Of a stretch of 64,000 nucleotides of DNA, positions 3,383 to 60,773 are shown piece after piece. The stretch's first letter is position 1; every line of letters starts with the position of its first letter. Location of the stretch: the IMG/VR virus record IMGVR_UViG_3300036766_000185, positions 1-64,000 of that record. One strand, written 5' to 3'. The position numbers were made by a program, and so were the translations under genes. This DNA comes from a virus. Under the pieces are notes generated by a model that ran no database searches, was not told the origin of the DNA, and worked only from the letters and a program-made list of their open reading frames with translations.

Positions 3383-3383
3383 C

Positions 3384-3968: not shown

Positions 3969-4036
3969 TACGACTTTCCTCCGCAAGGATTAAACATTAA
4001 GTTACACTGATGTATAGGTGATATTGACTGTGATTT

Positions 4037-4144
4037 TCAGGGTGAAAGCTGAAGTCTTTGTAATTGCCTGTCCATCAATTCCATGCCAGAGCGGTAGATC
4101 TGTGCGCCCTGCATGATATTACCACACCCACACGGATTGAACAT
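4037..4144 (-). CDS. Possible 35-residue coupled ORF
   Basis: A short frame, MFNPCGCGNIMQGAQIYRSG..., starts on an ATG that overlaps the stop of the upstream gene (TAATG) and ends 68 bases before the next gene. It has a CxC motif near its start and no membrane segment. Support is only position and coupling. If not coding, the stretch from 3969 to 4143 is an intergenic spacer in which I see no promoter or hairpin. Confidence 0.35.
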   Translation of the reverse strand: MFNPCGCGNIMQGAQIYRSGMELMDRQLQRLQLSP

Positions 4145-4509
4145 TATTTCTTCACCAAAAGCCAAATGATTACATTGCGTCCGTTTGTGTCTACCGCCGT
4201 CAAAATGAATCTATATTTTAATCCTACAGGGACTTCCATTTCGCCATCGGGATTTGTAATGGTAATTTCTCGTTCCCCTGGTGGTAAATAAGCTGTCTCT
4301 GCAAATTGTCCAACAATCCCCACAGTAGGATGTACAATAAATAGTTCTCCGTAATCTCCGTAACTACAATCTTTTGTAATAAGAACTACTCCAATAGGTT
4401 TAGTTCCCCAGGCAAATGTTTTATCAATGGTTATAGTGCTTTCCCCTGGGAGAATTTGCGCGAGAAGCCCACTTACATAAAGTTGGTCTGAAAATCCAAT
4501 GATAGCCAT
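4144..4509 (-). CDS. Small beta-rich virion-associated protein
   Basis: 121 residues, no recognised family. It alternates hydrophobic and polar residues in beta-like fashion (GESTITIDKTFAWGTKPIGV, REITITNPDGEMEVPVGLKY), with no signal peptide or membrane helix. Its ATG overlaps the stop of the long repeat fibre gene upstream. The location at the end of the duplicated fibre cluster suggests a fibre cap, tip or chaperone; that is inference from position. Confidence 0.65.
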   Translation of the reverse strand: MAIIGFSDQLYVSGLLAQILPGESTITIDKTFAWGTKPIGVVLITKDCSYGDYGELFIVHPTVGIVGQFAETAYLPPGEREITITNPDGEMEVPVGLKYRFILTAVDTNGRNVIIWLLVKK

Positions 4510-6134
4510 TAGACTACCTCCGTCCAGTAAACTGTGATTACCGTATTACGATTATTGCTCAAAGGGTCGCCAGTTAGAAGCATTACATTACCTGGGTTGA
4601 TAACAAATAAAGCATCACCAATAACTTCGGTGCTATTCATGTTTTGTCCCGATTCATACCTAAAGAGGCTTGCCCCATTTGCTGTAATCGTCGGAGTCGT
4701 AAAGGTCTGAGAGATTGTCGCGGGATTTGAGGCTCCCCCAACATTTAGATTGACAGGGCTGATTGCTGTTCCATTTGCGGAGACCGTTGGGTTTGCAAAG
4801 ACTCTCCAAATACCTGAAACATTTGCTATCGTCAATCCGACATTGAGGCGAGTTATGCGAATTCGCTTTCCGCTTCCTATAGGATTCTTTAGTAGTAAAA
4901 CGGGATTAAAGGTTCCCGCCGTAGGGAGCGAAAAATCAAAAGCCAAACCAAAAGATTGTCCTAAATCAACGGCGGTAGCTGTGGATGACTGACTACTAAC
5001 TACGTTTACATCTAATGCTTGCTTTGTGCTAACAAGACTTGAGGTAATTGCATTTCCAGCACTATCAAAGAGTCCTCGAACTTGAGTTGTTAATTGTGTC
5101 TTAATTTGAGCCAGTGTTGCCTGAGTCGCAAAGTCCTTCCCCGCGAGTACCGCGAGAGTGGTCTGGGTGGCAAAGTCTTTTCCTGCAAGTGTCGCTAGGT
5201 TCCCGCCTTCTCTTGCTGGGTCGGCGGGGATTTTGTCTACGTCAGTCTTAATAAGAGCGAGTGTGGTTTCTGTTGCGAAATCTTTAGCCTCCAATGCCGC
5301 AAGTGTGGCTTCACTGGCTCTGGTGGAGAGCAACACATCTAGTTGGTCGCGCACCGATTGAACTTTCGCCTCTAGGTCATCAGTGTTGACTTCCAGGCTG
5401 TCGGTGTTATCAATAATCGACTGTAACTTGGCTTCTACGGTATCTAGTTCATCCTTGATTAAGGCAAGCGTGGTTTCTGTCGCAAAGTCCTCTGCCTCAA
5501 AGTCAGCCTTAATTGCAGCCAGGGTCGTTTCAGTGGAATAATCTTTGGCAATTAGTGTGTCTAGTTTCGCCTCAACCTCATCGACATTCAGGTTGATACT
5601 GTCCGCGTTCATGTTAATAGTATCCGCGTCCAGTCTAATTTCGGCGGTATTGGTAACAATGTCGTCGAGTTTAAGAAGGGCTGAATCTAAGTCTGCTTTT
5701 ACATCGAGTAGCGTCGCTTCAGTAGCAAAATCCTCAGCCGTGAACGTCGCTTCAGTAAGCAACGTCCCCAAAGTGGTTTCTGTGGCAAAGTCTTTACCTT
5801 CTAACGAAGACAACGTAGCTTCGGTGGCCAGCACGGACAGGTCTGTATCCAAATGTTGAAAGAGGGGTGTTAAATCTGCGCCTGTCTGTGCTGTCCCGCC
5901 CCATTTCTCTACATTCACGTCGGGGCTAACATTGATAACTGCATCTTCAACTACTAGCTCTGTATCAACCTTCAGGGCTAGTGTTCCGTCTCCTTGATCG
6001 GTTGATGCAATTGGTGCCCAGCCAATAATCTGTCCCGTACCATCAACTATAGGAAGACATAGACCTGCAAGTGATCGACCATTTCGATCAACGGGCAGAG
6101 CGGGAGGCTTGCTACCTGTTACGTCGTTAACCAT
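4509..6134 (-). CDS. Long repeat fibre protein, paralogue of the 436-residue fibre
   Basis: 541 residues. After an N-terminal head-like domain (residues 1-100; ...PVDRNGRSLAGLCLPIVDG..., then DVNVEKWGGTAQTGADLTPL) it has a stalk built of about a dozen copies of a degenerate repeat with core 'FATETTLA' and 'TLAALEAKD', interleaved with heptad segments (DTVEAKLQSIIDNTDSLEVN). This pattern suggests a trimeric coiled-coil or beta shaft. The C-terminal 180 residues are a beta-rich domain (KQALDVNVVSSQSS onward), the likely tip. The same N-terminal and stalk modules occur in the 436-residue gene upstream, with a different C-terminal domain, so the pair arose by duplication followed by tip exchange. 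Role as side or tail fibre is inferred. Confidence 0.75.
   Translation of the reverse strand: MVNDVTGSKPPALPVDRNGRSLAGLCLPIVDGTGQIIGWAPIASTDQGDGTLALKVDTELVVEDAVINVSPDVNVEKWGGTAQTGADLTPLFQHLDTDLSVLATEATLSSLEGKDFATETTLGTLLTEATFTAEDFATEATLLDVKADLDSALLKLDDIVTNTAEIRLDADTINMNADSINLNVDEVEAKLDTLIAKDYSTETTLAAIKADFEAEDFATETTLALIKDELDTVEAKLQSIIDNTDSLEVNTDDLEAKVQSVRDQLDVLLSTRASEATLAALEAKDFATETTLALIKTDVDKIPADPAREGGNLATLAGKDFATQTTLAVLAGKDFATQATLAQIKTQLTTQVRGLFDSAGNAITSSLVSTKQALDVNVVSSQSSTATAVDLGQSFGLAFDFSLPTAGTFNPVLLLKNPIGSGKRIRITRLNVGLTIANVSGIWRVFANPTVSANGTAISPVNLNVGGASNPATISQTFTTPTITANGASLFRYESGQNMNSTEVIGDALFVINPGNVMLLTGDPLSNNRNTVITVYWTEVV
5100..5870 (-). repeat. Tandem degenerate coding repeats (fibre stalk)
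   Basis: The DNA carries a series of degenerate direct repeats encoding (D)FATETTLA-like units. Similar units recur at 7330-7930. Unit lengths vary, as in fibre shafts that evolve by recombination between repeats. Confidence 0.65.
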
Positions 6135-6298
6135 CTAGCATGTCTCCATATTCGCTTTAGTTCCCATTTGATTTTACTCTTAAGCGGGAGCAAGGACCAA
6201 TGATGTGGGACAGAGCGCACTCGTCTAAAAACGAGATACGCGTGATTCCCGCGTTTGTTTCCGATTCGCACTCGCTTTTTCGTAAGGGATAAGATCAT
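6119..6298 (-). CDS. Possible 59-residue basic protein
   Basis: An ATG frame of 59 codons fills an otherwise empty 166-base gap between two fibre genes and runs 16 bases into the downstream fibre gene. The product (MILSLTKKRVRIGNKRGNHA...) is strongly basic with many Arg, Lys, His and Trp. There is no clear ribosome site, which weakens the call. If it is not coding, I see no other structure in the gap. Confidence 0.35.
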   Translation of the reverse strand: MILSLTKKRVRIGNKRGNHAYLVFRRVRSVPHHWSLLPLKSKIKWELKRIWRHARWLTT

Positions 6299-6300
6299 AT

Positions 6301-6999
6301 TTAGGCTTTAACGTATGTAACGCGAATCTTATCGCCAATTTCTGGGGGATCATTGAACGTAATCGTATCCGTAACGATAGTATAGTCTTCAGTTGCTCCA
6401 ACATCTTGGAGTAACCCGTTCACATAGACTTGCTCTGTTCCCACTTCTGGAGTATTCGCGAGCATAAACGTGTCGTTCATTCCATCTACATCTCCAGTCG
6501 GGGTCTCTCGAACAATATACTCAGAGACCAGAACAGTATTTCCTGGATCAGTTATTTCATCAAAGTATGCTAGCACATGATCAGTATTTGTGGTGTCCTT
6601 GAAATGAAGACGATCATCAGTTCCGGCCAATACCGCCCAAAGACCTGTGCTGTCTATATCATCAGGGTCAGTTGAATTGCCGAATTGCAAGATAGCTTTT
6701 GTTGTAGCACTCTCAAGAATACTTATCGAACCTGCAACAGCAATTCCCTGTAAGGCCAGGAGTAGCGTTTGTCGTGTGGTACTAAAATCACCATCAAGAG
6801 CCGTATTAGCCTCAAGAAAAAGAGCATCATCAGAACCACGTATACGCCATAGACCATCAGGCAACGCATAGTCTGTATTTCTAAAAATTACCGCAGGATG
6901 CTCTTTCTCAATACGAAGATTTGCCGTTGTTTTTCTCGGCAAAATATCTCCGTCAGTGTTAATTTTCCACTTAGAAGGCGGACTTCCTAAAATTGCCAT
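6301..6999 (-). CDS. Fibre-like protein with shared C-terminal module
   Basis: 232 residues. The N-terminal 150 residues are a beta-rich region with segments such as 'GLWRIRGSDDALFLEANTAL' and 'LQFGNSTDPDDIDSTGLWAV'. Residues about 160-232 (YIVRETPTGDVDGMNDTFML ... EQVYVNGLLQ ... DTITFNDPPE) form the same module that ends the 230- and 431-residue fibre proteins, most like the latter. A good ribosome site (GAGGTGAG) precedes the start. It lies between the two long repeat fibres, so all may assemble in one appendage. Specific function unknown. Confidence 0.7.
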   Translation of the reverse strand: MAILGSPPSKWKINTDGDILPRKTTANLRIEKEHPAVIFRNTDYALPDGLWRIRGSDDALFLEANTALDGDFSTTRQTLLLALQGIAVAGSISILESATTKAILQFGNSTDPDDIDSTGLWAVLAGTDDRLHFKDTTNTDHVLAYFDEITDPGNTVLVSEYIVRETPTGDVDGMNDTFMLANTPEVGTEQVYVNGLLQDVGATEDYTIVTDTITFNDPPEIGDKIRVTYVKA

Positions 7000-7001
7000 C
7001 G

Positions 7002-8312
7002 TTATCTCACCTCTACTACACGCACATCAATAGTTACTCCCGTCGGGGCGACTGCGTAAACAAATCCGTAGTATTTGTCAGAGCCAAATAACTGATTCCC
7101 AACAATTGGGATTCCCGTTGCAACTGTAACTGAGGGATCGAATCCAACATAGAGCGTATTAGTCGAATCTTCATGGACGATTATATACTCTTTTCTCGAC
7201 GCATCCGCCGAAAGAAGTAGAGTCGCGGGAGCAACAGAATCATCGACAGAAATTGCTGCTGGATAAGCCGCTCCAACGCGAGCTTCTTGAACTCTGACGT
7301 TAAAGTCAGCGTCAATTACATCGTTAATCTGATTTTTTAAAGCAGCGAGTGTCGTTTGTGTAGCAAAATCTACCGCCGCTAATGTATCAAGGTCGGATTT
7401 TATTGCATCTAGATTTCCGCCCGATTCTAGAGCGAGTGTTCCTAGCGTCGTTTCTGTGGCGTAATCCTTAGCAATCAATGTATCAAGTTTTGGCTCGATC
7501 TCATCAACTGCAGAAAGGATACTTGCTAGGGTTGTTTCGGTCGCAAAATCTGTTGCATTAAGAGTGTCAAGTTTGGATTTAATATCCTCCAACTTTGCCT
7601 CAACATCATCAACACTTGTTAGGACACTCGCCAAAGTAGTCTCTGTGGCGTAGTCCTTTGCGATGAGGGAATCAAGTTTAGTCTTGATATCCTCTAACTT
7701 GGATTCCAACTCATCCGTGTTGACTTCCAAGGTATCCGTGTTGTCAATGATGGACTGTAGTTTTGCTTCTACTGTGTCCAACTCATCTTTAATGTCAGAT
7801 AACGTAGATTCTGAAGCTCTTGTAGATAATGCTACATCGAGTGCCGCAAGAATAGAATCTAAGTCTGTTTTAACGTCGGATAGCGTGGCTTCCGTCGCAA
7901 CAGTGCTTAAATCAACATCTAAGTGTTGAAAGAGAGGTGTAAGGTCAGCACCTGTTTGCGCGGTTCCGCCCCACTTTTCCACATTAACATCTGTGAGGGG
8001 AGCCGCAGCCATGCTAACGTGAACTGTACCGTCTGGATCAGTTAACAAAAATGTGTCAGATTGAATGCCGTCGGTTGAACCAACTTTTAGATTTCCAATA
8101 TTCACTGTGTCAGCATTAAGAGTCAACTCAGTGTCAACTTTTAACTTAGCGGTTCCATTTCCAGCGTCCACCGCGGCTGCAGGAAGATATCCTAGAATCG
8201 TTCCACCATCTACGATGGGCAGCACTAATACAGAAGAAGCCCGTCCATTTTTATCATATGGAAAGGCCGCTATTTTCTTACCCTTATATTGTCCTGGATC
8301 CGTGATTGGCAT
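7002..8312 (-). CDS. Long repeat fibre protein, paralogue of the 541-residue fibre
   Basis: 436 residues. N-terminal domain residues 1-120 share 'YDKNGRASSVLVLPIVDGG' and 'VNVEKWGGTAQTGADLTPL' with the 541-residue paralogue. The stalk (residues about 130-320) repeats 'DYATETTLA', 'IKDELDTVEAKLQSIIDNTD' and related units. The C-terminal 100 residues (ARVGAAYPAAISVDDSVAP..., 'YIIVHEDSTNTLYVGFDPS') differ from the paralogue and look like a compact beta domain, a likely receptor-facing tip. Fibre function is inferred from the repeat architecture and from the adjacent virion genes. The 80 bases upstream hold only a weak promoter-like pair that I do not accept. Confidence 0.75.
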   Translation of the reverse strand: MPITDPGQYKGKKIAAFPYDKNGRASSVLVLPIVDGGTILGYLPAAAVDAGNGTAKLKVDTELTLNADTVNIGNLKVGSTDGIQSDTFLLTDPDGTVHVSMAAAPLTDVNVEKWGGTAQTGADLTPLFQHLDVDLSTVATEATLSDVKTDLDSILAALDVALSTRASESTLSDIKDELDTVEAKLQSIIDNTDTLEVNTDELESKLEDIKTKLDSLIAKDYATETTLASVLTSVDDVEAKLEDIKSKLDTLNATDFATETTLASILSAVDEIEPKLDTLIAKDYATETTLGTLALESGGNLDAIKSDLDTLAAVDFATQTTLAALKNQINDVIDADFNVRVQEARVGAAYPAAISVDDSVAPATLLLSADASRKEYIIVHEDSTNTLYVGFDPSVTVATGIPIVGNQLFGSDKYYGFVYAVAPTGVTIDVRVVEVR

Positions 8313-8392
8313 TTCTTCTCCTTTTTGCGCAATCGTCCGCTTTGTAGAAGTGTATTTGTAGCTTGCGTTGTACAGTCAAGACTACGCACGAT

Positions 8393-8809
8393 CTACGCGG
8401 AAGTATTGGTATTCAATTTTACGAGCTTTACTTTAGGAACTATGTGAAAAACTCTCTTTATTTGATCAGAAAGACGACAAAATATACATGGTTTTGAAGC
8501 AAAATTGGCACTGGCATTAACACCGATTGCATCGCTACTCGTTCTAGATAATTCTAAGTTTTCGAGACGTTTTAATACGGTGTCTTTAGAATAATACTGA
8601 ATGTAATCTTTAAGCTTGCTTATCTTTCCAGGGTATTCAGACTCAGAAATCGGTTCATATCCTCGACTGACTAGCTCTTTCTTGATCTCATTGTCAAATA
8701 CCACAGTATATCCTCGATTAGACTTGGAAAGATGCTTTATATAAACATTCTTCCCATTAACAGAATCAGTTAGTCGTGTATATCCCTCAGGAGCGCGAAG
8801 AATCTGCAT
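8393..8809 (-). CDS. Hypothetical protein downstream of the capsid gene
   Basis: 138 residues using the ATG preceded by GAGGG; an ATG 19 codons upstream lacks a ribosome site. The sequence begins MQILRAPEGYTRLTDSVNGK and has a basic, mixed alpha/beta character, with a CIFC pair near residue 110 that could bind metal. No family recognised. It sits between the major capsid gene (after a strong hairpin) and the fibre cluster, so a minor virion role is possible. Confidence 0.65.
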   Translation of the reverse strand: MQILRAPEGYTRLTDSVNGKNVYIKHLSKSNRGYTVVFDNEIKKELVSRGYEPISESEYPGKISKLKDYIQYYSKDTVLKRLENLELSRTSSDAIGVNASANFASKPCIFCRLSDQIKRVFHIVPKVKLVKLNTNTSA

Positions 8810-8906
8810 TATACCCTCGTGTTTGACATACCAAAAAATCCCGATTGATGGTCCACCCGTGCCCATCGAGTCTTACGATTGTCTAAAGCTTTCATTGTTG
8901 AGTGGG

Positions 8907-8935
8907 GGAGTGGAGAGCTTGTTGCTCTCCACTCC
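8907..8935. other. Strong hairpin after the major capsid gene, no U-tract
   Basis: A perfect 12-bp inverted repeat (GGAGTGGAGAGC / GCTCTCCACTCC) with a 5-nt loop lies 29 bases past the capsid stop. There is no T-run on either side. Possible roles are 3' end protection of the abundant capsid mRNA, partial termination, or RNase III processing. Confidence 0.65.
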
Positions 8936-8963
8936 GTCCTCAATACAATTCTATAACTAAGTC

Positions 8964-9965
8964 TTACACTGGTTCGGTTAAACCCGCACCGGTAATCTTA
9001 GCCTGGAACGCCTCGCATGTGATTTGAAGAACAGTAAACTCAGCTACCAGCGTTCGGTAAGCGGACTGCAGAAGAGCCAAGTCAATAGCGCTCAGCGGCA
9101 TAAGGTCAACCATCTGAATTGCGTTGCCATCCTCAAGCACCGTCTTGTCATCGAGCACAAGAATAGATGCCTCGTCATCCCCATCTGGAGGAAGATAACG
9201 AGAACCGATAATGTCAACCGTACCGAATGGAGAAGTCCATCGAGTAACGCTGACACCGGCTGGAACATCAGCCATCGAACCAGCACCGGCCTGAAATAGG
9301 CGGTAGAACGAGCCAAGAACAAGCTCGCTGATTCGCTGCACTTCACGATAACCTGCAACCACACACTGAGGTTTGCCACCCTTGTTAACGATTTCTCGTT
9401 CTTGGTCAGTAATATCTGACAAAGAGAGTGCAACACCCATTAGATCTTTGGTGTTGGTGACGGTCTGCTTGAGCAAACCATCGTACTGCAAACCAGCACC
9501 GACAGAAGAATCGCCATTTATAATAGCCCATTCTTCCATCAAGGCCACGTTCAACATCTTGACCTTGATCTGATGCTTTTTAACGTCGGTGTAAGTCGCG
9601 CCTGCCATTTGGTCGAAGAACGTCACCGCAACCACATCACCAAGGCTCGTGTACGGAGCGCTTAGATATTTGTAGCTCGGAGTCGTTGCTCCCGGAAGAC
9701 CACCCTTCTCGAAGAACCCGTTAGCCGGATTCGTACCCAAGAAGAGACCTTCAGCAGCACTCGTCGGAACCAAACGATACCAAGAGTGGGCTTTGCCATT
9801 CCCTTGAATTCGGTTCAAACGGTTGCGCAGAGGGGTGTCCGTCGGGGCCATGATAGCCATCTCGGACTGTAGATCTTCTCTGACCAGCAGCAGACCAGAC
9901 ACGTCCACAGACGATATCGCCTTCTGGATGTCTTGAATGGCCTGATCAACTACTTGTGCATTCAT
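8964..9965 (-). CDS. Major capsid protein (HK97 fold, SU10-type)
   Basis: 333 residues, the usual length for this class. The pattern 'LLVREDLQSEMAIMAPTDTP' followed by 'TPLRNRLNRIQGNGKAHSWY', the middle 'EEWAIINGDSS' with 'GLQYDGLLKQ', and the late 'DIIGSRYLPPDGDDEASILV' match the SU10-like major capsid family. There is no cleaved delta domain visible within the ORF, and the scaffold function probably lies in the long tail of the prohead protease two genes upstream. The protein forms the icosahedral shell. A GGAG site lies 13 bases before the ATG, somewhat far. The gene is followed by a stable hairpin. Confidence 0.9.
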   Translation of the reverse strand: MNAQVVDQAIQDIQKAISSVDVSGLLLVREDLQSEMAIMAPTDTPLRNRLNRIQGNGKAHSWYRLVPTSAAEGLFLGTNPANGFFEKGGLPGATTPSYKYLSAPYTSLGDVVAVTFFDQMAGATYTDVKKHQIKVKMLNVALMEEWAIINGDSSVGAGLQYDGLLKQTVTNTKDLMGVALSLSDITDQEREIVNKGGKPQCVVAGYREVQRISELVLGSFYRLFQAGAGSMADVPAGVSVTRWTSPFGTVDIIGSRYLPPDGDDEASILVLDDKTVLEDGNAIQMVDLMPLSAIDLALLQSAYRTLVAEFTVLQITCEAFQAKITGAGLTEPV

Positions 9966-9999
9966 GTTATTTTTATTTCTCCTTTTGTCTTACGTTAAC

Positions 10000-10019
10000 T
10001 GGGCGTTATCTTAGGCCCA
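10000..10019. other. Short hairpin upstream of the capsid gene
   Basis: TGGGC/GCCCA pairs across a 10-nt loop in the 89-base leader between the 67-residue gene and the capsid gene. It is short and may be incidental; nothing else is visible in that leader apart from an AT-rich ribosome binding region. Confidence 0.3.
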
Positions 10020-10054
10020 TTTTGTGATTACTATTTTCTTGCCTCTTATTTAAA

Positions 10055-10258
10055 TTACGCGGACTGAGCACCAACCACGACCCAAGCCGAATCGGTTTTA
10101 ACCATCAACTTGTGTGTCTCAGCGTCATATGCAACTGCACCCTCTGGAGCATCAGCAGGAAGATCATCCGTGTCAGCATAATTGGACGGCATGACATACC
10201 CAGTGGTTACCTTCAGAGGCCCAACCCAATGATTGTCAGGACTGTTATTCAGTGCCAT
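10055..10258 (-). CDS. Small capsid-associated protein (decoration-like)
   Basis: 67 residues. It opens MALNNSPDNHWVGPLKVTTG and closes with 'GAVAYDAETHKLMVKTDSAW', the latter a beta-hairpin pattern common at the ends of phage virion proteins. A 224-residue protein encoded at about 29.4-30.1 kb begins MGLNNSPDNTWVGDLRITGA and ends with a matching hairpin, so this short gene looks like that protein without its middle domain. Lying directly before the major capsid gene, it could be a head decoration or stabilising protein. Preceded by an excellent GGAGG site, fitting high expression. Confidence 0.75.
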   Translation of the reverse strand: MALNNSPDNHWVGPLKVTTGYVMPSNYADTDDLPADAPEGAVAYDAETHKLMVKTDSAWVVVGAQSA

Positions 10259-10285
10259 TTTATTGTATATCCTCCTTCTACTTCG

Positions 10286-11608
10286 TTAACTCTTTCGAAT
10301 ATCCCCGCCGAATTTTCGGTCAAGGGACTTGTTGATTAAGGACTCGCGTTTCTGTGCTAGCTCTGGAGGAAGATCCTTGTGTGGATTAGCCTTCACCCAA
10401 GCGTGGACTTCATCGTAATCCTTCTGAATTGTATCCTCTTCAGTTGTCTCATAAACCTTGTTAATTTTGTTGTATTTACGAGGAAGAGGTTCCTTCTCCA
10501 ATTTCTCAATCTTCTCTTGAAGAGTCGCCACGGTCTTTCGAAGATCTTCTACGCCGTCGCTCTTAGCTACTTTCACAGCGCCGTCTTCTGCATCTTCATC
10601 TGCGCCATGATCTGCCGCGTCTTCTGCATCAGCCGGTTTGTCTTTCTTTTTAACTGGAACCGCTGGTGTTTCTTGAGTCTTAAGATCGGACGTAGCTGGA
10701 TCTTTCGCCTTCTCTACTTCAGCCTCTTTCTTAACAGGAACAGCCGGAGTTTCTTGCGTCTTCAAGTCAGAAGTTGCTGGGTCTTTCGCCTTCTCGGTCG
10801 GTTCGCCTTCAGCTTCTTTCTTGACGGGCACGGCGGGAGTTTCCTGAGTCTTAAGATCGGAAGTGGCCGGATCCTTAGCTTTCTCAGTAACGTCTTCTTT
10901 AGCTTTCTCTTTCTCAGCTTCAATCTTCGCTTTGAGTTCTGGCGGCATTTCACCCTTGAGCAATTTGCCAATATTCTCAATTAATGAATCAATCTTGCCA
11001 GTAAGTTCTTTGACTAGAGTTGCGTCCATATCTACACTTTCACCTCCTGCTCTCTTCTCAGTTTCCAAAGAGTCGTTTGTTAGATCTGCACTCTTTTGTG
11101 TATCTTCAACTACCTCTGTTTGCTGCAGAGTTCCATCATCTGCCATCTTTACCAACGTAAATGTCGATTCTGGATTGGCAGGGTTATCTACGAGCGAAAG
11201 CTCATTAAGACGGTACTTGGTGATTCTGGTAATCTGTCTATCTTTCCCACTGTCTGCATCTTTAATAATCTGAACACTTTTGTCTAGCGTATTCCCACCG
11301 ATACTAAATCCGGTTAAAATACCCTCTTTCACTTTTGTCCAAGTATCCTCGGCTCCTTTAGAAATGTAAGCCTTCACATACACTGACTTGGTTTCATCAT
11401 CAGGAATAATCTCAATGGCTTTACCAACCGCGATAGGATTATGCATCTCGCGAACTGCGCCTGCCCACTCCTTAAAGGCGGCTTTGGAAGCACCGTAGTC
11501 CACGATCTCTGACTGTTTGTCCACCGCCTCGGTCGTGGCATAGCCGGCAACAGTTCGAGCTTCTTTATCGACCTTCAAAATTGGAACGTAAAAGTTCAAA
11601 TTGTTCAT
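10286..11608 (-). CDS. Prohead protease (XkdF-like, S78-type) fused to repeat-rich scaffold-like tail
   Basis: 440 residues. Residues 1-155 form the XkdF-like/prohead serine protease domain, with the His in 'REMHNPIAVGKA', the Ser in 'ILTGFSIGG' and the conserved late motif 'LNELSLVDNPANPESTF'. This enzyme matures the capsid by cleaving internal proteins. Residues 160-440 are low-complexity, highly charged and predicted coiled-coil, as in protease-scaffold fusions. They contain three near-identical repeats of 'DPATSDLKTQETPAVPVKK'. Self-cleavage and scaffold release are expected for the class but not visible. The 5' end overlaps 44 bases of an HNH gene. Confidence 0.88.
   Translation of the reverse strand: MNNLNFYVPILKVDKEARTVAGYATTEAVDKQSEIVDYGASKAAFKEWAGAVREMHNPIAVGKAIEIIPDDETKSVYVKAYISKGAEDTWTKVKEGILTGFSIGGNTLDKSVQIIKDADSGKDRQITRITKYRLNELSLVDNPANPESTFTLVKMADDGTLQQTEVVEDTQKSADLTNDSLETEKRAGGESVDMDATLVKELTGKIDSLIENIGKLLKGEMPPELKAKIEAEKEKAKEDVTEKAKDPATSDLKTQETPAVPVKKEAEGEPTEKAKDPATSDLKTQETPAVPVKKEAEVEKAKDPATSDLKTQETPAVPVKKKDKPADAEDAADHGADEDAEDGAVKVAKSDGVEDLRKTVATLQEKIEKLEKEPLPRKYNKINKVYETTEEDTIQKDYDEVHAWVKANPHKDLPPELAQKRESLINKSLDRKFGGDIRKS
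10648..10888 (-). repeat. Three-copy coding repeat in the protease-scaffold gene
   Basis: Three direct repeats of about 66-80 bases encode the unit 'KDPATSDLKTQETPAVPVKK', separated by short Lys/Glu spacers. Synonymous differences between copies show they are not newly duplicated and that the peptide is being conserved. Confidence 0.8.
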
Positions 11609-13369: not shown

Positions 13370-16300
13370 TTAGTCGCTCTTTTCGTTTAGCTTCAACTCG
13401 TGCACGTGCTGCTGCTACGATTCTAGCCCGCTCTCCAATCTTGGGAGCATCTCCAGATCCTGACTCCGCCCCTCCTTTGTGCTCTTCAACGTATACTCCC
13501 TCTTTCGGAAACAGAAATCCGCCATCTACTACATCATTAGCCGAGATAATCCCTTTGTCCTCTAGTTCGTTTATCGCCTGAGCGTGAGTACTAGCACCAC
13601 GAACGTAATATACCGATCCGTCTGCAGTTCTAATCGTAGACAACACCGACTCCGGGTTCTTTTCATAAACCTTAGGAGGATTCTTGGGATCGTATTTTCC
13701 GTGATTCTGTCCCTCACTCTCAGATTTAGACTCACCAAATCTTCCTTTTTCATCTCTTGGATGAAGTGATTCAGTGAACTCTTTAGTCATATCACTCCAC
13801 ATCGTTTTGACGACTTTCTGATTTTCTCCCTCTTTGAGTTTAAATGATCGATATACGATCGCTCTAGTTACAGCAGTTAGACCTTCAGTCAAATAGAGTT
13901 CGTTTTTATAGCTAGACCACTCAGCAGGAGTAAGCTCATGTACGTTAGATTTGTCCTTTGGCAGAGGGATTGTATACTCAGACGGATCGAATCGAATTCC
14001 TTCGCTCTCTGCTACGCTTCCAGAATCTGAGAACTGCCCATGATTATCGCGAGGATGAAGGTCTTCTGACCATTCAGCTTTAGAGACTTCTCCTGTTATC
14101 TTCTCATAAGCCGCTTTAGTCGCAGGAATATAAACCGTGATGCTATCATCCTCTTTGTGCACCGCTGTAATCCATTCCGCTTTAATGTGATCCAGCATAT
14201 ACGACTGGTCAGGATCTTCAGTATCTCGCTGCGCATTCTTCTTGAAATAATCCTTGGGAATTCTAGCTTCAATCACGACCGGCGTGGCATCTTTCTCGTC
14301 GCTAAACGCAACTGCCATTTCCGCATAGGTTTGAGCATGCGCAGAATATCTAGTAACAAAGACTTTCCCTTCTCGCAGCTTAGCTTCTCTTCCGGGACCA
14401 ACTTGAGCCTCCTGATCAAAGACGTGATATTTCCCTACTTTTAACCCAGTTTGGAGGATAGACTTAACGTTCGATTCGACGGTTCCGTGGTAAACGAGCA
14501 CCGCGGAAAACTTCCCTCTATCGTCTCGTGGGTGAGATTCTTCAGTCCAATCGGCCTTCTCGATTTTTAATCCGGGAAATGAGTAGATATGCGTCCCATT
14601 CGACAATACGTGAATCTCCAGACTTGATGAAGACGCTTCGCTCTTTTTAACGTATTCTTTCCCATGGAAAATGTTCGTCTTGTACCAGGAATAGGTCTGA
14701 GGGGTGGTCTGTCTCATTTTCCCTGGAGACTCGATGTATGCTCGAAATAGTCCAGCCAAAAGTTCTACGGGTCCACCTTGCTCACCCTTGATTAGCACTT
14801 TTTCTACGGGTTCGTCTACAGCATGTCTGAGCAAGCTAGCACCTGGCTCCTTTGTCATGTCAGTTCTCCCAGCGCCAAAGTGTCCTGCTTCATGTAAGAG
14901 TACCGTCTCAAGAGATGGGGCTTTAGACCAATCTGCATTGGCATTTATAATGAGTTTTCCAGACTTGGGATCGGAGAAAGCAAAAGTAAGCTTGGCATTC
15001 TCCTCGTCTGGTTTGATTCCGGCCTCGTACATCTCTGCAGCGATAGATCCGCCTCTAAACTTTGCGCTGGTGAATTGATTTGTTACTTCAACTGTTTTAA
15101 TCTTGTCAGCAATTTGTGAAGGAAGTTTATCTTTTATAACAGTCATTGTATCGTTAACTTGGGTACGTACCAGAGAGAGAGTCTTTCTGTCTACAATTTC
15201 CTTCTCCCGTCTCCAAGCAATCCCTGCAGTACCACCACCACCTGCAGCGTAGGTAGCGGTCTCCCCGAATCTTCCACCTGCGTCCCTAGGGTGAAGCTCC
15301 TCGGTCCATTCGCCCTTGTTAATCTTCTGGGCTTCACGTCGGTCGATCTCTGCTAGAACCGATTCCCAATCACCTGTGAAAGCGACCGCTCTATCATCTA
15401 TGTAGTACGATGCTAGAGGCTTTCCCTGATTGGCGTCCTCTGGCTGATTGGGATTGTGATTGATAGCAGTAAACGGGATCTCATGATCGCCTAAGTAGGT
15501 CTCAATCGCGGCTGTATCTCCGCGACAAGTGTGAACAATAATCGTATAGCCTCTGTTTTTGAGTTCTATGAGGGCTTCTTTAGCGCCAGGAAGAACCTTA
15601 CCAAATCGTTTATCGTTATACTCTGGCTTTTCAAGAATTGTTCCGTCTAAATCAACAGCGATCGTTTTAGCTTCGATAGGCTCAGCCTTAGTAACTTTTG
15701 TGGAATCGCCCTCGTCGGGAGGCTGCTCAGAAGGTTCAAACAATTCTATACATCTGCAATTCGTAAGACATTCATTAGAACCGGCTTCATTTGCAAAATC
15801 GTCAGTTGTCATCCACTGATCATCGTTAGCTTCGCACCCATCGCATACGCGGTCATCGTGCACTGTATGCCAAATGCCGCCTTCTACCACATCTCCAATG
15901 GGTAACCCTGTTTCTTCATCTATAATAGGTTCTCCTGTTGGATCGCCGTTCTCATCCACCCCCTGAACATCCTTGATAGACTGACTCATTCCAGCGGCTA
16001 GCAGAATACTACCGGCAGCGGCTGCAAACATTCCTAGACGCCCTAAATCTGAGTTCTGAGCGTCTCCCAGTTTCTGCGTCAGGTCTTCGTCTGATAGCCC
16101 CTCGTCAGCAAGCATTTCTGAATATTGCTCATAGGCATCGTCTGATAACTTGTCAATGTACTCGTCATTCCAAGCGAGCTTGTCGTTCAATACTTCTTGA
16201 TCAACAGGAGTAACTGCATCATCGACTTCTTGATTGGTGAGAGCTTGCCCACGATTCTTGCCCAAGATGTAGGCGCTGGCAAATGCAGTCGTAGCAGCAG

Positions 16301-23211: not shown

Positions 23212-23369
23212 CCTATCTTCTCCACAACGTAGAGATCCTTGCCGTCTTTGTTAGTATCAAGAACTCTCCAATAACCGACGATAGTAGTGAACTCATCACC
23301 TACTTTGAGCTTACGTCCTAGTTTTGCTTCAAGTGCTTTCCACGAAACGGTCTGCACCTCGCTTGTCAT
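23208..23369 (-). CDS. Small protein, 53 residues
   Basis: A complete short frame MTSEVQTVSWKALEAKLGRK... starts on TAATG with the upstream gene and ends on TGATG with the downstream membrane protein, so it is part of a coupled chain. The sequence 'KVGDEFTTIVGYWRVLD' looks like a small beta domain. No family recognised. Confidence 0.65.
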   Translation of the reverse strand: MTSEVQTVSWKALEAKLGRKLKVGDEFTTIVGYWRVLDTNKDGKDLYVVEKIG

Positions 23370-24421
23370 TACTCTTGCTCGTTAGCTTCCGAAAGTTCTA
23401 ACGACAGAGCGGACAAGATCGTTTCTGCGATCTGACGCATACTATCAACGATCTGACCATAGGAATCTGCAATTTCAGGGTCAACTGAATGACGTGCTTG
23501 CATAGCCTTCATATCGCCTGCAAGTCCGACGACTCGCTCTAGTGAGGAGAGCAAATCCTGAAACGGGGTGGGCATCATCGGCATAGATTGTGCTGGAGTC
23601 GGAAGAATGTCTCCGTCTTTCTTGACTTTCTCATCTCCACCCTGCTCATGAACGATGTAGTTGGCCAGAGCGTGTGGATCCTCTACTCCTGGCTTGTCTT
23701 TGACCGCTTCATAGACCTCTGTATGAGAGGGACTACCCTTCTTTACGGGAATATCTGTCGTCTGATTAACTGCCAGTGGTCGAGCTTCTTCTATATGACA
23801 CTTGACTAGCAAATACGCAATCTCATGCGTCTGAAGACCATTAGCCCACTTGACTACTGCACGATCGTTAACTACGTTCAGAACGACACCCTTAACGATT
23901 TGCTGTCCAGTACGAGCGAAATTCTTAACAACTTGATCACCAATCTTGACTGGATCAACAGCGACAAATTTAGCTGCTGGCTCAGTCGTTACTGGTAGCG
24001 CTTGAGGAGCGTTAGTCGGATTGCTTACGTCGATCTGTATCTTGTCTGACAAAGCTTGCTCTTCCGTAGTAACTGTTTTACCCTTCTCATCTACGTCTGG
24101 GAGCTTCTCTCCACCTCTCAATGATTCATCGGGTTGAGCATCATTGTCATGCGTCGGAGTCGCTTTGGTGTCTGATATGGGACGCACAGCCTCTACTCTA
24201 GTCGGAGTCTGCATCTGTTTCTTAAGATCAGACTCTTTTTCTTTTCGAAGCTCGGTCCCTGTAACGATACGAACTGTCTTCTGTACTGTCTTTTTGCTGT
24301 CCATCATCGCGTCAAATAGCTTACGCGAATAATTTTCTTCTTCCGTAGACAACAAGATAGACTGCGCTCTCTTAGAGAGAATCGTCTTGATCTTGTCATT
24401 GTCGAATTTAAACTCTGCCAT
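23369..24421 (-). CDS. Virion-associated hypothetical protein with charged linker
   Basis: 350 residues. A helical N-terminus (residues 1-60) is followed by a disordered charged linker, a compact domain around residues 150-215 (DPVKIGDQVVKNFARTGQQI, then VVNDRAVVKWANGLQTHEI), and a helical C-terminus. The middle resembles a KOW/SH3-like barrel. It follows the HPRxxxGKF protein and may be co-packaged with it, but this is only context. Confidence 0.6.
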   Translation of the reverse strand: MAEFKFDNDKIKTILSKRAQSILLSTEEENYSRKLFDAMMDSKKTVQKTVRIVTGTELRKEKESDLKKQMQTPTRVEAVRPISDTKATPTHDNDAQPDESLRGGEKLPDVDEKGKTVTTEEQALSDKIQIDVSNPTNAPQALPVTTEPAAKFVAVDPVKIGDQVVKNFARTGQQIVKGVVLNVVNDRAVVKWANGLQTHEIAYLLVKCHIEEARPLAVNQTTDIPVKKGSPSHTEVYEAVKDKPGVEDPHALANYIVHEQGGDEKVKKDGDILPTPAQSMPMMPTPFQDLLSSLERVVGLAGDMKAMQARHSVDPEIADSYGQIVDSMRQIAETILSALSLELSEANEQE

Positions 24422-28435: not shown

Positions 28436-28512
28436 TTTGTTTTTACGTCAAAGAAGACGCTCATTGTTAACAGCACGACAGATACAAGCAGAAACCACAT
28501 CAAATCGATCAT
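28432..28512 (-). CDS. 26-residue membrane micro-protein
   Basis: MIDLMWFLLVSVVLLTMSVF followed by a short polar tail: a single membrane helix. Its ATG lies in the stop of the upstream micro-protein (TAATG) and its stop overlaps the next ATG (ATGA), so it is held in a coupled chain. Confidence 0.5.
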   Translation of the reverse strand: MIDLMWFLLVSVVLLTMSVFFDVKTK

Positions 28513-28619
28513 TACGGAGCGCCATACTTTTTGAAGTACCAATAAACCAGCGCTTTGATTCCTACTAGCACTAGAACGACTATGACTATTAATTTTGGAA
28601 TATGCAGTTGTATGTTCAT
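28512..28619 (-). CDS. 35-residue membrane micro-protein
   Basis: MNIQLHIPKLIVIVVLVLVG, then a polar, basic tail ending KKYGAP. One membrane helix with the basic side C-terminal. GGGAG lies six bases before the ATG. It is the first gene after the structured non-coding region and begins a coupled chain of small genes. Confidence 0.55.
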   Translation of the reverse strand: MNIQLHIPKLIVIVVLVLVGIKALVYWYFKKYGAP

Positions 28620-28633
28620 TTTTAGCTCCCAAA

Positions 28634-29187
28634 ATTATTGTTGAGTTTGTAGCGGGCCGTTACTCTTCGCGAGGTTTTACGTCTGCCCATTCCTGGGACG
28701 CTAACGTTTATCAGACAGCTTGACTCAACTCGGCCAATATCTATGTTTGATCTACTCGCCGCTTTACCCTTCCATCACAAGTAACGGAGGGAGGTCTAGC
28801 AGGTTGCGGCTTTCGATCTAACCCGCCTCAACAGGCCACTCCTGTTTGTTGGCAGCAAGGAGAGTCTTTTTCATTTCAAGTGCTCTCTACTTTGTCCCTT
28901 GCGGGGAACACCCACTCACGTTGATCGGCTTTCCGCCTATGTGAGCCTGAGATTTACAGGGTCGTCTGTGGGCTTGAAGGAGAGTCCGTAGCGCTACTCA
29001 CTTCTCCAACAGTGTCCAGCAGATTTTATCTCAGTTTCCTCGTAGAGTCTTCAAGGTAAACTACGAGTTAGTAGCGCAATGCGACTGACTACGAGTGGTC
29101 TACACTCTGATTATCATTACCGGCTAGCTAGGCCGCTCCTAGTCACCAGCCAATCGCTTATAGGTTCAGCGCAAATTGTCAAACGTC
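28634..29187 (-). ncRNA. Candidate large structured RNA, about 550 nt
   Basis: No frame of useful length exists here on either strand, in a genome where gaps are otherwise tiny. Read as minus-strand RNA it is dense in hairpins: GGCT/AGCC enclosing CTAGG/CCTAG (29122-29151); CTCGTAG/CTACGAG (29039-29067); CTCAC/GTGAG enclosing GGC/GCC (28915-28945); a GU-containing 7-bp stem (28799-28826) that pairs only in the minus-strand sense; AACAGG/CCTGTT (28830-28846); GTCTG/CAGAC enclosing CCCA-GGAA-TGGG (28681-28716); and a long-range GTTGAGT/ACTCAAC stem (28640-28729) closing the 3' domain. Size and phage setting recall the ROOL and GOLLD RNA classes; membership is a hypothesis. A TTGACA at its 5' side lacks a well-spaced -10. 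Confidence 0.6.
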
Positions 29188-29385
29188 TTAATCTGGAGTT
29201 ACTGCAACGTCCTGTAACACTCCAGCGTAATTAGCTCGAAGATCGCTTCCAGTTCTCCAGCAATCACCATCGTGCGTATGTCCGAGCACATCGGATCCAC
29301 GATCTTGCAACTGCTTAAGATTCACTGTCACCTTGCGAGCCAGAGGCTCGATCAGTTTCTTCACTGTAGGTAATCCGTTATTCAT
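29188..29385 (-). CDS. Hypothetical protein before the structured RNA region
   Basis: 65 residues, with GGGAG ten bases before the ATG. Mixed helix and loop, with a His/Asp cluster 'GHTHDGDCW' that could bind metal. No family recognised. It lies between a capsid-associated gene and the structured RNA region. Confidence 0.6.
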   Translation of the reverse strand: MNNGLPTVKKLIEPLARKVTVNLKQLQDRGSDVLGHTHDGDCWRTGSDLRANYAGVLQDVAVTPD

Positions 29386-29412: not shown

Positions 29413-30087
29413 TTAAGCACTAGTAACAAGCTTCCAACTCGGAGTCGCTTTGCTTCCGCCATTCACGTACAGCTTTCCAGCCGAACGATCAACGCAAATC
29501 GAGCCAACCTCTGCCGTCCCAGCCCCTACTGAACTATCGGGGACTCCAGCGTTGCTCAAAAGACAGACCTCGTGCGACATTCGAACATCAGCTTTCAAAA
29601 TAGCCAGTGCGAGATAGCTATCGTGTGCTGCGCCGTGTAGATCAACGCCAAAGTCAAATCCTGACCCTGGGCTACTGTTGTTCGACATAGCTTTGAAAGC
29701 TGCGTTAGCTTTAGTAACTCCGCTATCCCCATCAATTACTGCTACAACTGCGCCGTCCGCAGCAGTAACGGTGTCCATAATCAGACCTAGAACAGCCCCT
29801 GTCGGATAGGACGTAGCCTTAGCTCCAGTAATCGAATATGCTCCAATAAGTCCAGCTAAGTAGTTAGCATCCTTAGTCAAACTGTCACCGAGAACGTTCC
29901 CCATGACAGCAGCGAGGAATTTAGGGTCTCCGCCGTCAGCACTACCTGCATCCGCTCCTAGGCTCAAGTCGGGAGCGATAACTTGGAATGAACTAGCGTC
30001 AGAGTAATCCTCTCCAGAACCCAAGAGCGCTCCAGTAATTCTCAAGTCGCCTACCCATGTATTGTCTGGTGAATTGTTCAGACCCAT
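29413..30087 (-). CDS. Capsid-associated protein sharing termini with the 67-residue protein
   Basis: 224 residues from the ATG preceded by AGGAG. It starts MGLNNSPDNTWVGDLRITGA and ends with 'GSICVDRSAGKLYVNGG' and a final Trp-Lys-Leu-Val strand; both ends match the 67-residue protein next to the capsid gene. The extra middle (residues 25-185; 'GNVLGDSLTKDANYLAGLIG', 'DFGVDLHGAAHDSYLALAIL') is Ala/Gly-rich and looks like a beta-rich surface domain. A decorated-capsid or collar function is inferred from the paralogy. Confidence 0.7.
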   Translation of the reverse strand: MGLNNSPDNTWVGDLRITGALLGSGEDYSDASSFQVIAPDLSLGADAGSADGGDPKFLAAVMGNVLGDSLTKDANYLAGLIGAYSITGAKATSYPTGAVLGLIMDTVTAADGAVVAVIDGDSGVTKANAAFKAMSNNSSPGSGFDFGVDLHGAAHDSYLALAILKADVRMSHEVCLLSNAGVPDSSVGAGTAEVGSICVDRSAGKLYVNGGSKATPSWKLVTSA

Positions 30088-30141
30088 TTTGTTTAGATCT
30101 CCTTTTCCATATCTTATAGCCCGAAAGTTTCGCCCTATCAA

Positions 30142-31529: not shown

Positions 31530-31612
31530 TTGGGGTCATCGCAGTTCATTAGAAACGCAACAATCAGCAACCAGACTCCGATGCCTACGGACATCCAATC
31601 AATCTGATTCAT
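31526..31612 (-). CDS. 28-residue membrane micro-protein
   Basis: MNQIDWMSVGIGVWLLIVAF then LMNCDDPK: one helix. ATGA overlaps link it to the cysteine protease gene upstream and the zinc ribbon downstream. Confidence 0.5.
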   Translation of the reverse strand: MNQIDWMSVGIGVWLLIVAFLMNCDDPK

Positions 31613-32376
31613 TTTCTAATCGTCCACATGTCTCTTGCAAGATTTGGATTGCTAATGTACGCGTAGGGCATTGTGAAGTAGCCCTTTTGTCCCCAACCCG
31701 TTCCCCACGAGTTGCGTACTAACACTCTCTGCGCTGCGTCGTCATACCCAACTGCCAGCACTGCATGGCCGCCTACTGCCTGCTCATTGATGCTTGGAAG
31801 CTGAGCTATCCCTGTTTGTGCTACTTCTGACGACTCGAAACTTTCGTAGACTGTGAACCCGAACGCAAACGGAAATCCCTGCGCTAAACAATCTCTCATA
31901 TCATTTAAAGAAAGAAGTCGATGATAAGACGTGATTCTATGTACTAATGCATCTCGATAACTCTGTATTGAGGGCTTGACTGTAAACTTACAAATGTCGT
32001 ACGCCCACTCTCTCTCAGAACACGTTCCCCATCTCGCTAGCGCTTTAATTCCGTCTCTCAACTGCGCACCTGCGTCGTGATCTACTGTCTGCTCAATCAC
32101 TCTCTCGTTATAATAAACGAACAGTCTGCTCAAATCCATGAAGACTTCAGGATTAAATGCTAGATCGGTCGTGTTCTCTAAGTATTCGAGGGCTCCTACT
32201 AGCGCGTTGGCTGTGCAGGAACCAAGCTCTCCCTGATTCTCGACTGGCGAGCACCTATCTCTTATATCAACTTTCGTTGGGAGTACGATAAGCTGCTGAG
32301 TTCTAATGATATGGCAAAACAGTTGATCTCTGTGATCTGGTAGATCGGGATGCCATCCGTACTTCTGCATACTCAT
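31609..32376 (-). CDS. Papain-like cysteine protease (C1A family)
   Basis: 255 residues from the ATG in the ATGA overlap with the terminase stop. The catalytic Cys is in 'ENQGELGSCTANALVGALEY' (preceded by the oxyanion Gln), the His in 'VGGHAVLAVGYDD', and the Asn in 'VRNSWGTGWGQKGYF', the complete papain triad. No signal peptide or long inhibitory propeptide is present; only about 45 residues precede the core. C1A proteases are unusual in phages. Coupling to the large terminase suggests late expression, so it may act on virion or host proteins during assembly or lysis; that is inference. Confidence 0.88.
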   Translation of the reverse strand: MSMQKYGWHPDLPDHRDQLFCHIIRTQQLIVLPTKVDIRDRCSPVENQGELGSCTANALVGALEYLENTTDLAFNPEVFMDLSRLFVYYNERVIEQTVDHDAGAQLRDGIKALARWGTCSEREWAYDICKFTVKPSIQSYRDALVHRITSYHRLLSLNDMRDCLAQGFPFAFGFTVYESFESSEVAQTGIAQLPSINEQAVGGHAVLAVGYDDAAQRVLVRNSWGTGWGQKGYFTMPYAYISNPNLARDMWTIRK

Positions 32377-34151
32377 TTTTTCTTGTACCAAGGAGGCGGG
32401 CTTTCCCCGTATCGAATCAACTTCTCAGCTTCATACTTAACAGGCTGTCTCATTGGATCCGTGGGAGGCTGAAAACTTCCAGACCAGAACTTGAATTCTG
32501 ACTTTCCATGCTCGATGCAGAGTCTTACGCATCCTGCGACTGCATCAGCAACGTCCTTTGATCCTTTATTGATGTTGTCCTCGTAAAGCGCTCGATCGGG
32601 CGATACTACAGGGTGATCAACCTTCTTTCCGTCTATCAACTGTAGTTCACAAAGCTCTCGTACTAACGTCTTATGAAAGTAACACTCAAAGATTCCTTCG
32701 TTAATTGTTCTCTTGAGGGTGTCGTACGCTTTCAGATCCTTATCTACAGACTGCTCCTGCGCGTTAACTCCTGCACGTCTTAACTGTTGAATTGAGTCAA
32801 TTGACTGCCACCCATCATAGGTGACCATTTGTATTGGGAATTTCTCAATTCTTCTAAGACGCTCGATAAAGGCTCTCACCTCTTCGAACATAATCTCACC
32901 GCCAGGAGGAGCTTTTAGCTGCAAAACTAAGTCAATGATTGCGCCGACTTTCTTAATACCCTGCTGCAATCTAATTGCTTCTTCTGTCAACCCTGTTTCT
33001 TGAGAAAGAGCTTTAATGAAGTCATCTGGCATCTTCACCATCATGCCGCGCTTGAAGTGCCCTAAGGCGAGTCCACACGCGTCGTTACCCTTACCACCCT
33101 TGGCAAGATCTACGTGCATGTAGTATGAAGCTGCTATTTCTGGCTTGAAAAAATCTTTAAATGCGAGTGTTCTAAGATCTATAACGTTCGTTTTATCTTC
33201 TATAACGGGATTTATCCGATTACTAGAATTAATAACCTGTGAAATTCTTGTTCTATAGGGAAAGTATCCACCCTCGGAGGTATCTCCTTTACACTCGTAA
33301 ATACGTTCAGCGGTCTGCGCGTCTGCTATGTAATCACTTACGAAGTCCTCTTTAGTTCTTCGCGGATTCACATCCCAGGTGGCGTAGGGTCCGCTTCTGA
33401 AAGTAGACGGCTCAAACTCAGCCTGCTTAAACCGCGTTATCATAAAGTCTGTGTCGGCTCTTTTATACGACAACAGAAGGATTTTCATATGTTTCGGAAA
33501 GCGGGAGCGAGCCGTAGTCTTTAATGCGTCATACAAATCTTTGGCCTTTGTAACTTCAAATCCTGCGATTTCATCGTAAATGATTAGCAGAAGATTCAAC
33601 CCTTCACCTGTGTACTCTTTACTATCTAATGAATAAGCCGTTATGTTCTTGGGGAACTCAATGTCGCGCTTGTGTATGTCTTTCTTCGAGTTAAGTCCTC
33701 TTTCGTAGAACCAATTCTTTTTCGTTTTAGGATTGATCGTTTTCTTGACTAAATTAACAAAGTATTTGAAGAATACTGCCTTGGCTAGCTTAGCGTTAAT
33801 ACACACGTTGCCCACTTCAATTTTATCACCTGTTCCGCCCAGTCCAAGCATCTTGTAAGGATCTTTCATGCACAGCAGCTTATACACTACATACAACATA
33901 ATCTTTGCTGCTGTCTTATCTTTCCCTGAACCCTTTCCCCAGAGAGCGATTCCCTCCTGAAACTTATCATCCCAGACGAGAGGATCCTCACCAATACACG
34001 CATCGACGAATTCCTGCTGTTTTGGAAACAGCGGCTCATCTATGAACTTGTCAAAGAACTCTCGTGGACTTACTGGAATCTCTTCCCAGTCGCCCACTGA
34101 CTCTGGCGAAGCGGAAAGGCTATCACTATAATTAAGCTTTACTAGCTTCAT
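32373..34151 (-). CDS. terL: Large terminase subunit (TerL)
   Basis: 592 residues. N-terminal ATPase: Walker A variant 'LWGKGSGKDKTAAK' near residue 70 and Walker B 'LLLIIYDEIAGFE' near 190. C-terminal RNase H-fold nuclease: 'MHVDLAKGGKGNDACGLA' near 347, 'MVTYDGWQSIDSIQQL', and the late acidic 'SKDVADAVAG'. It pumps DNA into the prohead through the portal and cuts concatemers. The Walker A has Lys-Asp before Lys-Thr, a known TerL variation. Overlaps the upstream coiled-coil gene by 20 bases. Confidence 0.93.
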   Translation of the reverse strand: MKLVKLNYSDSLSASPESVGDWEEIPVSPREFFDKFIDEPLFPKQQEFVDACIGEDPLVWDDKFQEGIALWGKGSGKDKTAAKIMLYVVYKLLCMKDPYKMLGLGGTGDKIEVGNVCINAKLAKAVFFKYFVNLVKKTINPKTKKNWFYERGLNSKKDIHKRDIEFPKNITAYSLDSKEYTGEGLNLLLIIYDEIAGFEVTKAKDLYDALKTTARSRFPKHMKILLLSYKRADTDFMITRFKQAEFEPSTFRSGPYATWDVNPRRTKEDFVSDYIADAQTAERIYECKGDTSEGGYFPYRTRISQVINSSNRINPVIEDKTNVIDLRTLAFKDFFKPEIAASYYMHVDLAKGGKGNDACGLALGHFKRGMMVKMPDDFIKALSQETGLTEEAIRLQQGIKKVGAIIDLVLQLKAPPGGEIMFEEVRAFIERLRRIEKFPIQMVTYDGWQSIDSIQQLRRAGVNAQEQSVDKDLKAYDTLKRTINEGIFECYFHKTLVRELCELQLIDGKKVDHPVVSPDRALYEDNINKGSKDVADAVAGCVRLCIEHGKSEFKFWSGSFQPPTDPMRQPVKYEAEKLIRYGESPPPWYKKK

Positions 34152-60744: not shown

Positions 60745-60773
60745 AGTATATCACACCGTGTTAGTGCTGTTAA
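60745..60773 (-). promoter_or_regulatory. Sigma70-like promoter P3
   Basis: On the minus strand TTAACA, 17 bp, TATACT. The core GGTGTGATATACT is identical to P4. It overlaps the last codons of the polymerase gene and drives the ssDNA-binding protein operon. Confidence 0.65.

Follow-up and report, generated by a model that had tools for sequence, protein, structure and literature searches.

A gene-free region of a phage genome holds a member of a predicted, widespread family of pseudoknotted RNAs

Introduction

To our knowledge, few structured RNAs recur across unrelated phage lineages. The species 1 and 2 RNAs of phage T4 (rnaC and rnaD) are small stable RNAs inside the phage tRNA cluster. 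Other systems close to the subject of this study include ROOL and GOLLD, phage-encoded ornate RNAs of unknown function that often lie near tRNA islands (PMC12286853), and the theta ribozymes, which have been proposed to cut phage transcripts beside phage tRNAs (PMC10879173). The cellular Ro60 protein works with a tRNA-like RNA (PMC7824862).

Here, we analysed a stretch of 64,000 nucleotides (the window) that is part of a 96,181-base IMG/VR virus record. A preliminary description of the window had read a long gap between its genes as a 550-nt structured RNA, had suggested ROOL or GOLLD as relatives and had left a new class open. As judged from sequence comparison, the gap holds a structured RNA. 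With its initial ~100 bases, it falls into a widespread family of pseudoknotted phage RNAs that had not been catalogued before and that occurs in phages of many different sizes, nearly always as a single copy.

Results

The gene-free region and its surroundings

The phage genes identified encode a terminase, portal, head protease, RecA and a uracil-DNA glycosylase (UDG) domain fused to DNA polymerase A (60770-63277). A papain-family cysteine protease gene (31609-32391) immediately follows the terminase gene. The minus strand is the coding strand, and its longest run without an ORF measures 555 nt (Table 1), which agrees with the preliminary description; the runner-up is 314 nt, and this ranking is unchanged whether the minimum ORF length is set to 30, 45 or 60 aa. 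Neither Pfam nor PHROGs yielded a match to the conserved gene gpX, whose predicted structure (pLDDT 36) was set aside. The gpX core (TKANAAFKAMSNNS...GSGFDFGVDLHG) is also found in other phage proteins, at ~60% identity and in differing gene contexts. Outside the window, gpX or its core occurs in loci L007, L009, L095, L097, L098, L099 and L101. ARAGORN predicted zero tRNAs or tmRNAs within the window, while two tRNAs were matched in the whole 96-kb record, both outside the window and one of them at 74373.

Folding of the single sequence was rejected as proof of structure. On the minus strand, the minimum free energy is -176.6 kcal/mol, whereas shuffled sequences average -166.7 (z = -1.49), and the plus strand has a z-score of -0.52. 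The seven stems that had been identified by eye are thus no better than chance, because 9 of 100 shuffled minus-strand sequences fold equally well.

No Rfam 15 family reached its gathering threshold in the window, and searching the gene-free region and the related locus L009 yielded, as the best result, a single chance-level match (E-value of 2-4). Twelve loci that hold members of the family described below likewise had no family match at the element itself. Apart from ROOL and GOLLD, which are discussed below, every Rfam family was rejected as its identity for lack of a match in the window, the region, L009 or these 12 loci, and a group I intron or S-like motif in L009 was dropped for the same reason. 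Near the family member in L124, positions 899-1278 encode a phage tmRNA that matches the Rfam permuted and betaproteobacterial models. The YrlA model matched only a tRNA pair in that locus, below the gathering score.

Relatives and members of the family

A first DNA comparison with phage isolates returned no relatives, nor did queries with the protein at 23369-24421 or TerL alone, so alignment-based scans were needed. Scanning with a TerL alignment identified L007, L008 and L009 as close relatives (TerL identity of 58%). L009 contains two copies of sequence from the 5' end of the window's gene-free region, the first of them directly after the gpX homologue. A gpX scan identified L095, where the 5' motif and a second block lie downstream of gpX. 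From the shared motif, we built the search pattern GAACYYATAA-N8..18-GTGACTRRG and scanned it over IMG/VR. Gaps of 11 or 12 make up 73 of the 88 occurrences in the fetched loci, although chance would spread the gaps evenly over 8-18. Nearly always, the R letters of the pattern complement its two Y letters. These preferred gaps and the R/Y complementarity indicate a real family signature.

Near-identical copies were merged, the resulting 48 core sequences were aligned, and a nine-member subset was used for covariance model R1. This model identified 58 members in 70 loci and none in 13 decoy loci with chance pattern matches. In 95 further phage loci (1.0 Mb), it had three matches, all to Ro-linked loci from member genomes. 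Model R2 was built from 53 members, leaving out the window, L009 and L095. R2 detects the window on the minus strand (Table 1), where the independence of the match is qualified by the window having contributed to R1 and by the use of R1-aligned sequences for R2. It also recovers both L009 copies and L095.

R2 had zero matches in 1.22 Mb of TerL-related loci and in 24 whole related records. As most TerL relatives are without the RNA, it is accessory. The strict pattern was absent from 84,980 GTDB cellular genomes. Concatenated BLAST queries revealed one isolate with the family, Sinorhizobium phage Phosso, where the element is unannotated (288299-288386). The RNA was absent from Atu_ph07, PA5oct, Paride and a Vibrio jumbo phage, which were picked by tail-tube homology. 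A description of the motif was not found in open-licence papers, and an earlier one may exist elsewhere.

Structure of the core

The predicted fold consists of a helix, P3 (8-12 bp), that encloses hairpins P4 and P5 and the joining segment UAANGRUA, and the window fits this fold (Table 1). In the pseudoknot, CCYA immediately 5' of P3 pairs with URGG just within it. These strands are complementary in all 58 members, as CCUA/UAGG (34), CCCA/UGGG (21) or CUCA/UGAG (3), with CC, CU and UC tracking GG, AG and GA in step. Among the 57 distinct sequences, 96.3% of cells are paired, and both partners vary in 20 of the 22 pairs. Covariation scores 0.913, compared to 0.197 after shuffling and at most 0.123 with slid partners. 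The preliminary description had proposed covariation among homologues as a check, and covariation is indeed present. Its reading of a structured phage RNA on the minus strand, in coding direction, therefore holds for 29074-29172, where the covarying fold lies. Leaving a new class open also proved right. The family has no match in Rfam 15.

About 25 core positions are near-invariant, where the conservation of GAACYYATAA and GTGACTRRG partly reflects selection of members by the search pattern, while P3, P4, P5 and UAANGRUA lie outside the pattern. The core is 82-93 nt long and free of any multiple-of-three constraint, so it is not a coding frame. Its conserved stretches also hold sense-strand stops.

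Members form units of ~85-150 nt. Around the core, many have hairpins P2 and P6 and a terminal helix P1 of 6-15 bp. The P1 of the window has 4 bp only, while most others fall in that range, and in L144, L115, L095, L009 and the window P1 sits directly on the core. In members from tRNA arrays, the loop of P2 is complementary to that of P6 (UGCUCA/UGAGCA). In L177, the element at 3097-3178 is followed downstream by a T-arm-like hairpin, an acceptor-like stem and ACCA, so that it resembles a tRNA body with the pseudoknot domain replacing the anticodon arm.

Table 1. Coordinates of the predicted RNA and its neighbours in the window.
Feature	Position	Strand	Remarks
Gene-free region containing the RNA	28633..29187	-	Longest ORF-free stretch, 555 nt
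Family core, domain D1	29082..29168	-	R2 74.3 bits, E-value 8.3e-14
P1 5' strand GCGC	29169..29172	-	Pairs with 29074-29077; inferred from sequence and position in L144, L115, L095 and L009
P1 3' strand GCGC	29074..29077	-	Same basis as the P1 5' strand (29169..29172)
Pseudoknot strand CCUA	29161..29164	-	Paired in 57/57 distinct sequences
Pseudoknot partner UAGG	29138..29141	-	Pairs with CCUA 29161-29164
P3 5' strand GCGAUUGGCU	29148..29157	-	P3 pairs vary on both sides across the family
P3 3' strand AGUCAGUCGC	29081..29090	-	P3 pairs vary on both sides across the family
P4 hairpin CGGC...GCCG	29121..29135	-	Covariance model
Conserved joining segment UAANGRUA	29112..29119	-	Five positions 91-100% conserved in 58 members
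P5 hairpin GAGUG-UAGAC-CACUC	29093..29107	-	Covariance model
Domain D2	28964..29024	-	Closing stem UCUG/CAGA, internal loop ACACUGUU/UUCAAG, helix GGAGA/UCUCC, palindromic tip
Palindrome GUAGCGCUAC, tip of D2	28988..28997	-	Identical in L095
Hairpin CCGUU(A)CUUG(U)GAUGG with outer stem	28766..28795	-	Aligns to L007 9354-9393, E-value 0.002, A-U/G-C exchange; weak
gpX, conserved gene upstream of the RNA	29413..30141	-	L009 and L095 have a homologue at the equivalent position
65-aa ORF between gpX and the RNA	29188..29385	-	ORF list
35-aa ORF downstream of the RNA, hydrophobic peptide	28512..28619	-	ORF list

The remainder of the gene-free region

Outside the core, domain D2 is 80% identical to L095 9138-9207 over 70 nt (E-value of 6e-10), and two compensatory changes between them were read from the sequences in its GGAG/CUCC helix. 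The palindrome GTAGCGCTAC, which had been placed near 28988, is the tip of D2. A pattern scan for D2 returned L095 and unrelated sequences, so we rejected D2 as a wider family. For 28634-28960, the whole support consists of a single short match, to L007 (E-value of 0.002). Structure in the 555 nt beyond D1 and D2 is thus weakly supported. Of the proposed 550-nt RNA, the ~86-nt pseudoknotted core stands, and it is found in many phages without the remainder; the full 550 nt as one unit does not. In the window phage and in L095, the core could be the 5'-most domain of a longer region with D2 as a further domain, and the conserved palindrome at the tip of D2 might allow pairing between molecules.

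Genomic context and copy number

Scanning whole records with R2 revealed one copy in 15 of the 16 matching records, including those of 290-561 kb. The exception is the phage of L009, the only scanned record with two copies. These lie 0.9 kb apart (14661-14746 and 15542-15625), with ORFs of 97 and 51 aa between them.

Clustering of the neighbouring genes identified a tail sheath gene upstream of the RNA in 16 loci and a tail tube gene downstream in 15, all on the strand of the RNA. Their identities were checked with PHROGs in L170, L109 and L137 and against the annotation of Phosso. These neighbours belong to large phages. Other lineages have a DNA polymerase gene or tRNA arrays beside the RNA, and the window has gpX. 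In eight GC-rich loci, a DNA polymerase A gene lies downstream of the RNA. A tRNA or tmRNA is found within 1 kb of 19 of the 58 members, in all 19 cases on the same strand. Neighbours thus vary across lineages and are fixed within each, with the orientation kept.

Because the copy number is near single and the neighbours vary by lineage, the context favours action in trans, although neighbours that are fixed within lineages may also fit a role in cis. The RNA could then be an operon element, acting as a leader, 3'-UTR stabiliser or processing signal for late sheath and tube genes, before DNA polymerase and in tRNA operons. Such an element would explain why it always lies on its neighbours' strand, at a set place within each lineage, and just upstream of the polymerase gene in the eight loci mentioned. 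It would not be expected to have wholly different neighbours across lineages or to be nearly always single-copy, and the window's core lies ~450 nt away from the next ORF. We therefore consider a cis-acting element unlikely.

Discussion

On balance, we think it likely that 29074-29172 on the minus strand is a member of an uncatalogued phage RNA family that functions as a trans-acting non-coding RNA. The RNA would be made within long phage transcripts, either of late structural genes or of tRNA operons. It would then be cut from the transcript and survive as a compact unit closed by P1. Its invariant joining segments are predicted to form, probably, one binding surface. Candidate partners include a widely conserved host factor, such as the RNA-processing, RNA-surveillance or translation machinery, and a phage protein. 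More tentatively, the family may represent a phage-wide, single-copy class of trans-acting RNAs that is roughly as conserved as a core RNA of cells and serves a single shared function in phages whose genomes reach 560 kb. It would probably do so by engaging host machinery that is universal, be it for RNA surveillance or tRNA handling, or the ribosome. In some phages, the RNA would have become part of larger multi-domain RNAs.

With its small, pseudoknotted core and numerous invariant nucleotides in the joining segments, the RNA could also be a self-cleaving ribozyme that cuts phage transcripts. Like the HDV-like theta ribozymes (PMC10879173), the family consists of small pseudoknotted phage RNAs, and one third of its members lie in tRNA arrays. 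However, it differs from them in consensus, and the Rfam ribozyme models, self-cleaving ones included, had no match in the window, the region or the 12 member loci. Moreover, members are nearly always single-copy and often distant from tRNAs, an invariant flank of a cleavage site was not seen, and P1 and P2 vary freely. These differences make a ribozyme improbable.

Another explanation is that the RNA is a Y-RNA-like partner of a phage Ro60. A TROVE/Ro60 gene is present in four of the 30 records tested as well as in Phosso, where it lies 1.9 kb downstream of the RNA and has Pfam TROVE and Ro60 vWA domains. Wherever positions were compared, Ro60 is downstream of the RNA on the same strand. In two huge phages of rhizobia, L187 (Phosso, 2371-11608) and L281 (Agrobacterium phage Atu_ph07, 1-7583), the Ro60 gene (TROVE and vWA) is located between the tail sheath and tail tube genes. 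Some members share tRNA-like features with bacterial Y RNA/YrlA, namely the P2 and P6 hairpins, and the loop complementarity of the tRNA-array group recalls the tRNA elbow. Yet TROVE is absent from 26 of the 30 records, including the window's own 96-kb record. Conversely, Phosso has both gene and RNA, while Atu_ph07 lacks the RNA although its Ro60 gene occupies the same sheath-tube interval, and the Streptomyces phages with an annotated Ro-like gene also lack the family RNA. We therefore rejected Ro60 as an obligatory partner. The Ro60-RNA link holds in one group of huge phages and is not general, and co-location there may reflect shared synteny alone. The family further differs from Y RNAs in its pseudoknot core, and the Rfam Y RNA and YrlA models had no match in the window or, for Y RNA, at the element itself. 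A Ro60 gene lies near the RNA in five phages. Overall, a Y-RNA-like partner of Ro60 is a very improbable identity for the family.

The chance that the RNA is a divergent ROOL or GOLLD is negligible, as their models had no match up to an E-value of 10 in the region or L009 and none in the window, which refutes this suggestion of the preliminary description at Rfam-model sensitivity. Returning to a distinct trans-acting family, its members resemble ROOL and GOLLD in their phage origin, in their frequent proximity to tRNAs and, in the window, in a palindrome that might support RNA-RNA contact in multimers. They differ in size (an ~86-nt core versus 600-800 nt), in having another pseudoknot, and in being absent, by pattern, from GTDB bacterial genomes.

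Some family members resemble T4 rnaC and rnaD as small phage RNAs within a tRNA cluster. We rejected the T4 RNAs as relatives, since the conserved motifs are absent from them and R2 had no match in the T4 genome. Likeness to tRNA and tmRNA is seen in L106, which ends in a T-arm-like hairpin and an acceptor-like stem, and in L177, with its T-arm and ACCA. In contrast to those RNAs, both have the P3 pseudoknot domain instead of an anticodon arm, and ARAGORN calls neither of them a tRNA or tmRNA. None of the catalogued phage-recurrent RNAs matches the new family. The Phosso isolate and its host make the role of the RNA experimentally accessible now. The compact fold, near-perfect compensatory change, usual single copy and varied genomic places of the family point to a shared, unrecognised step of phage infection.
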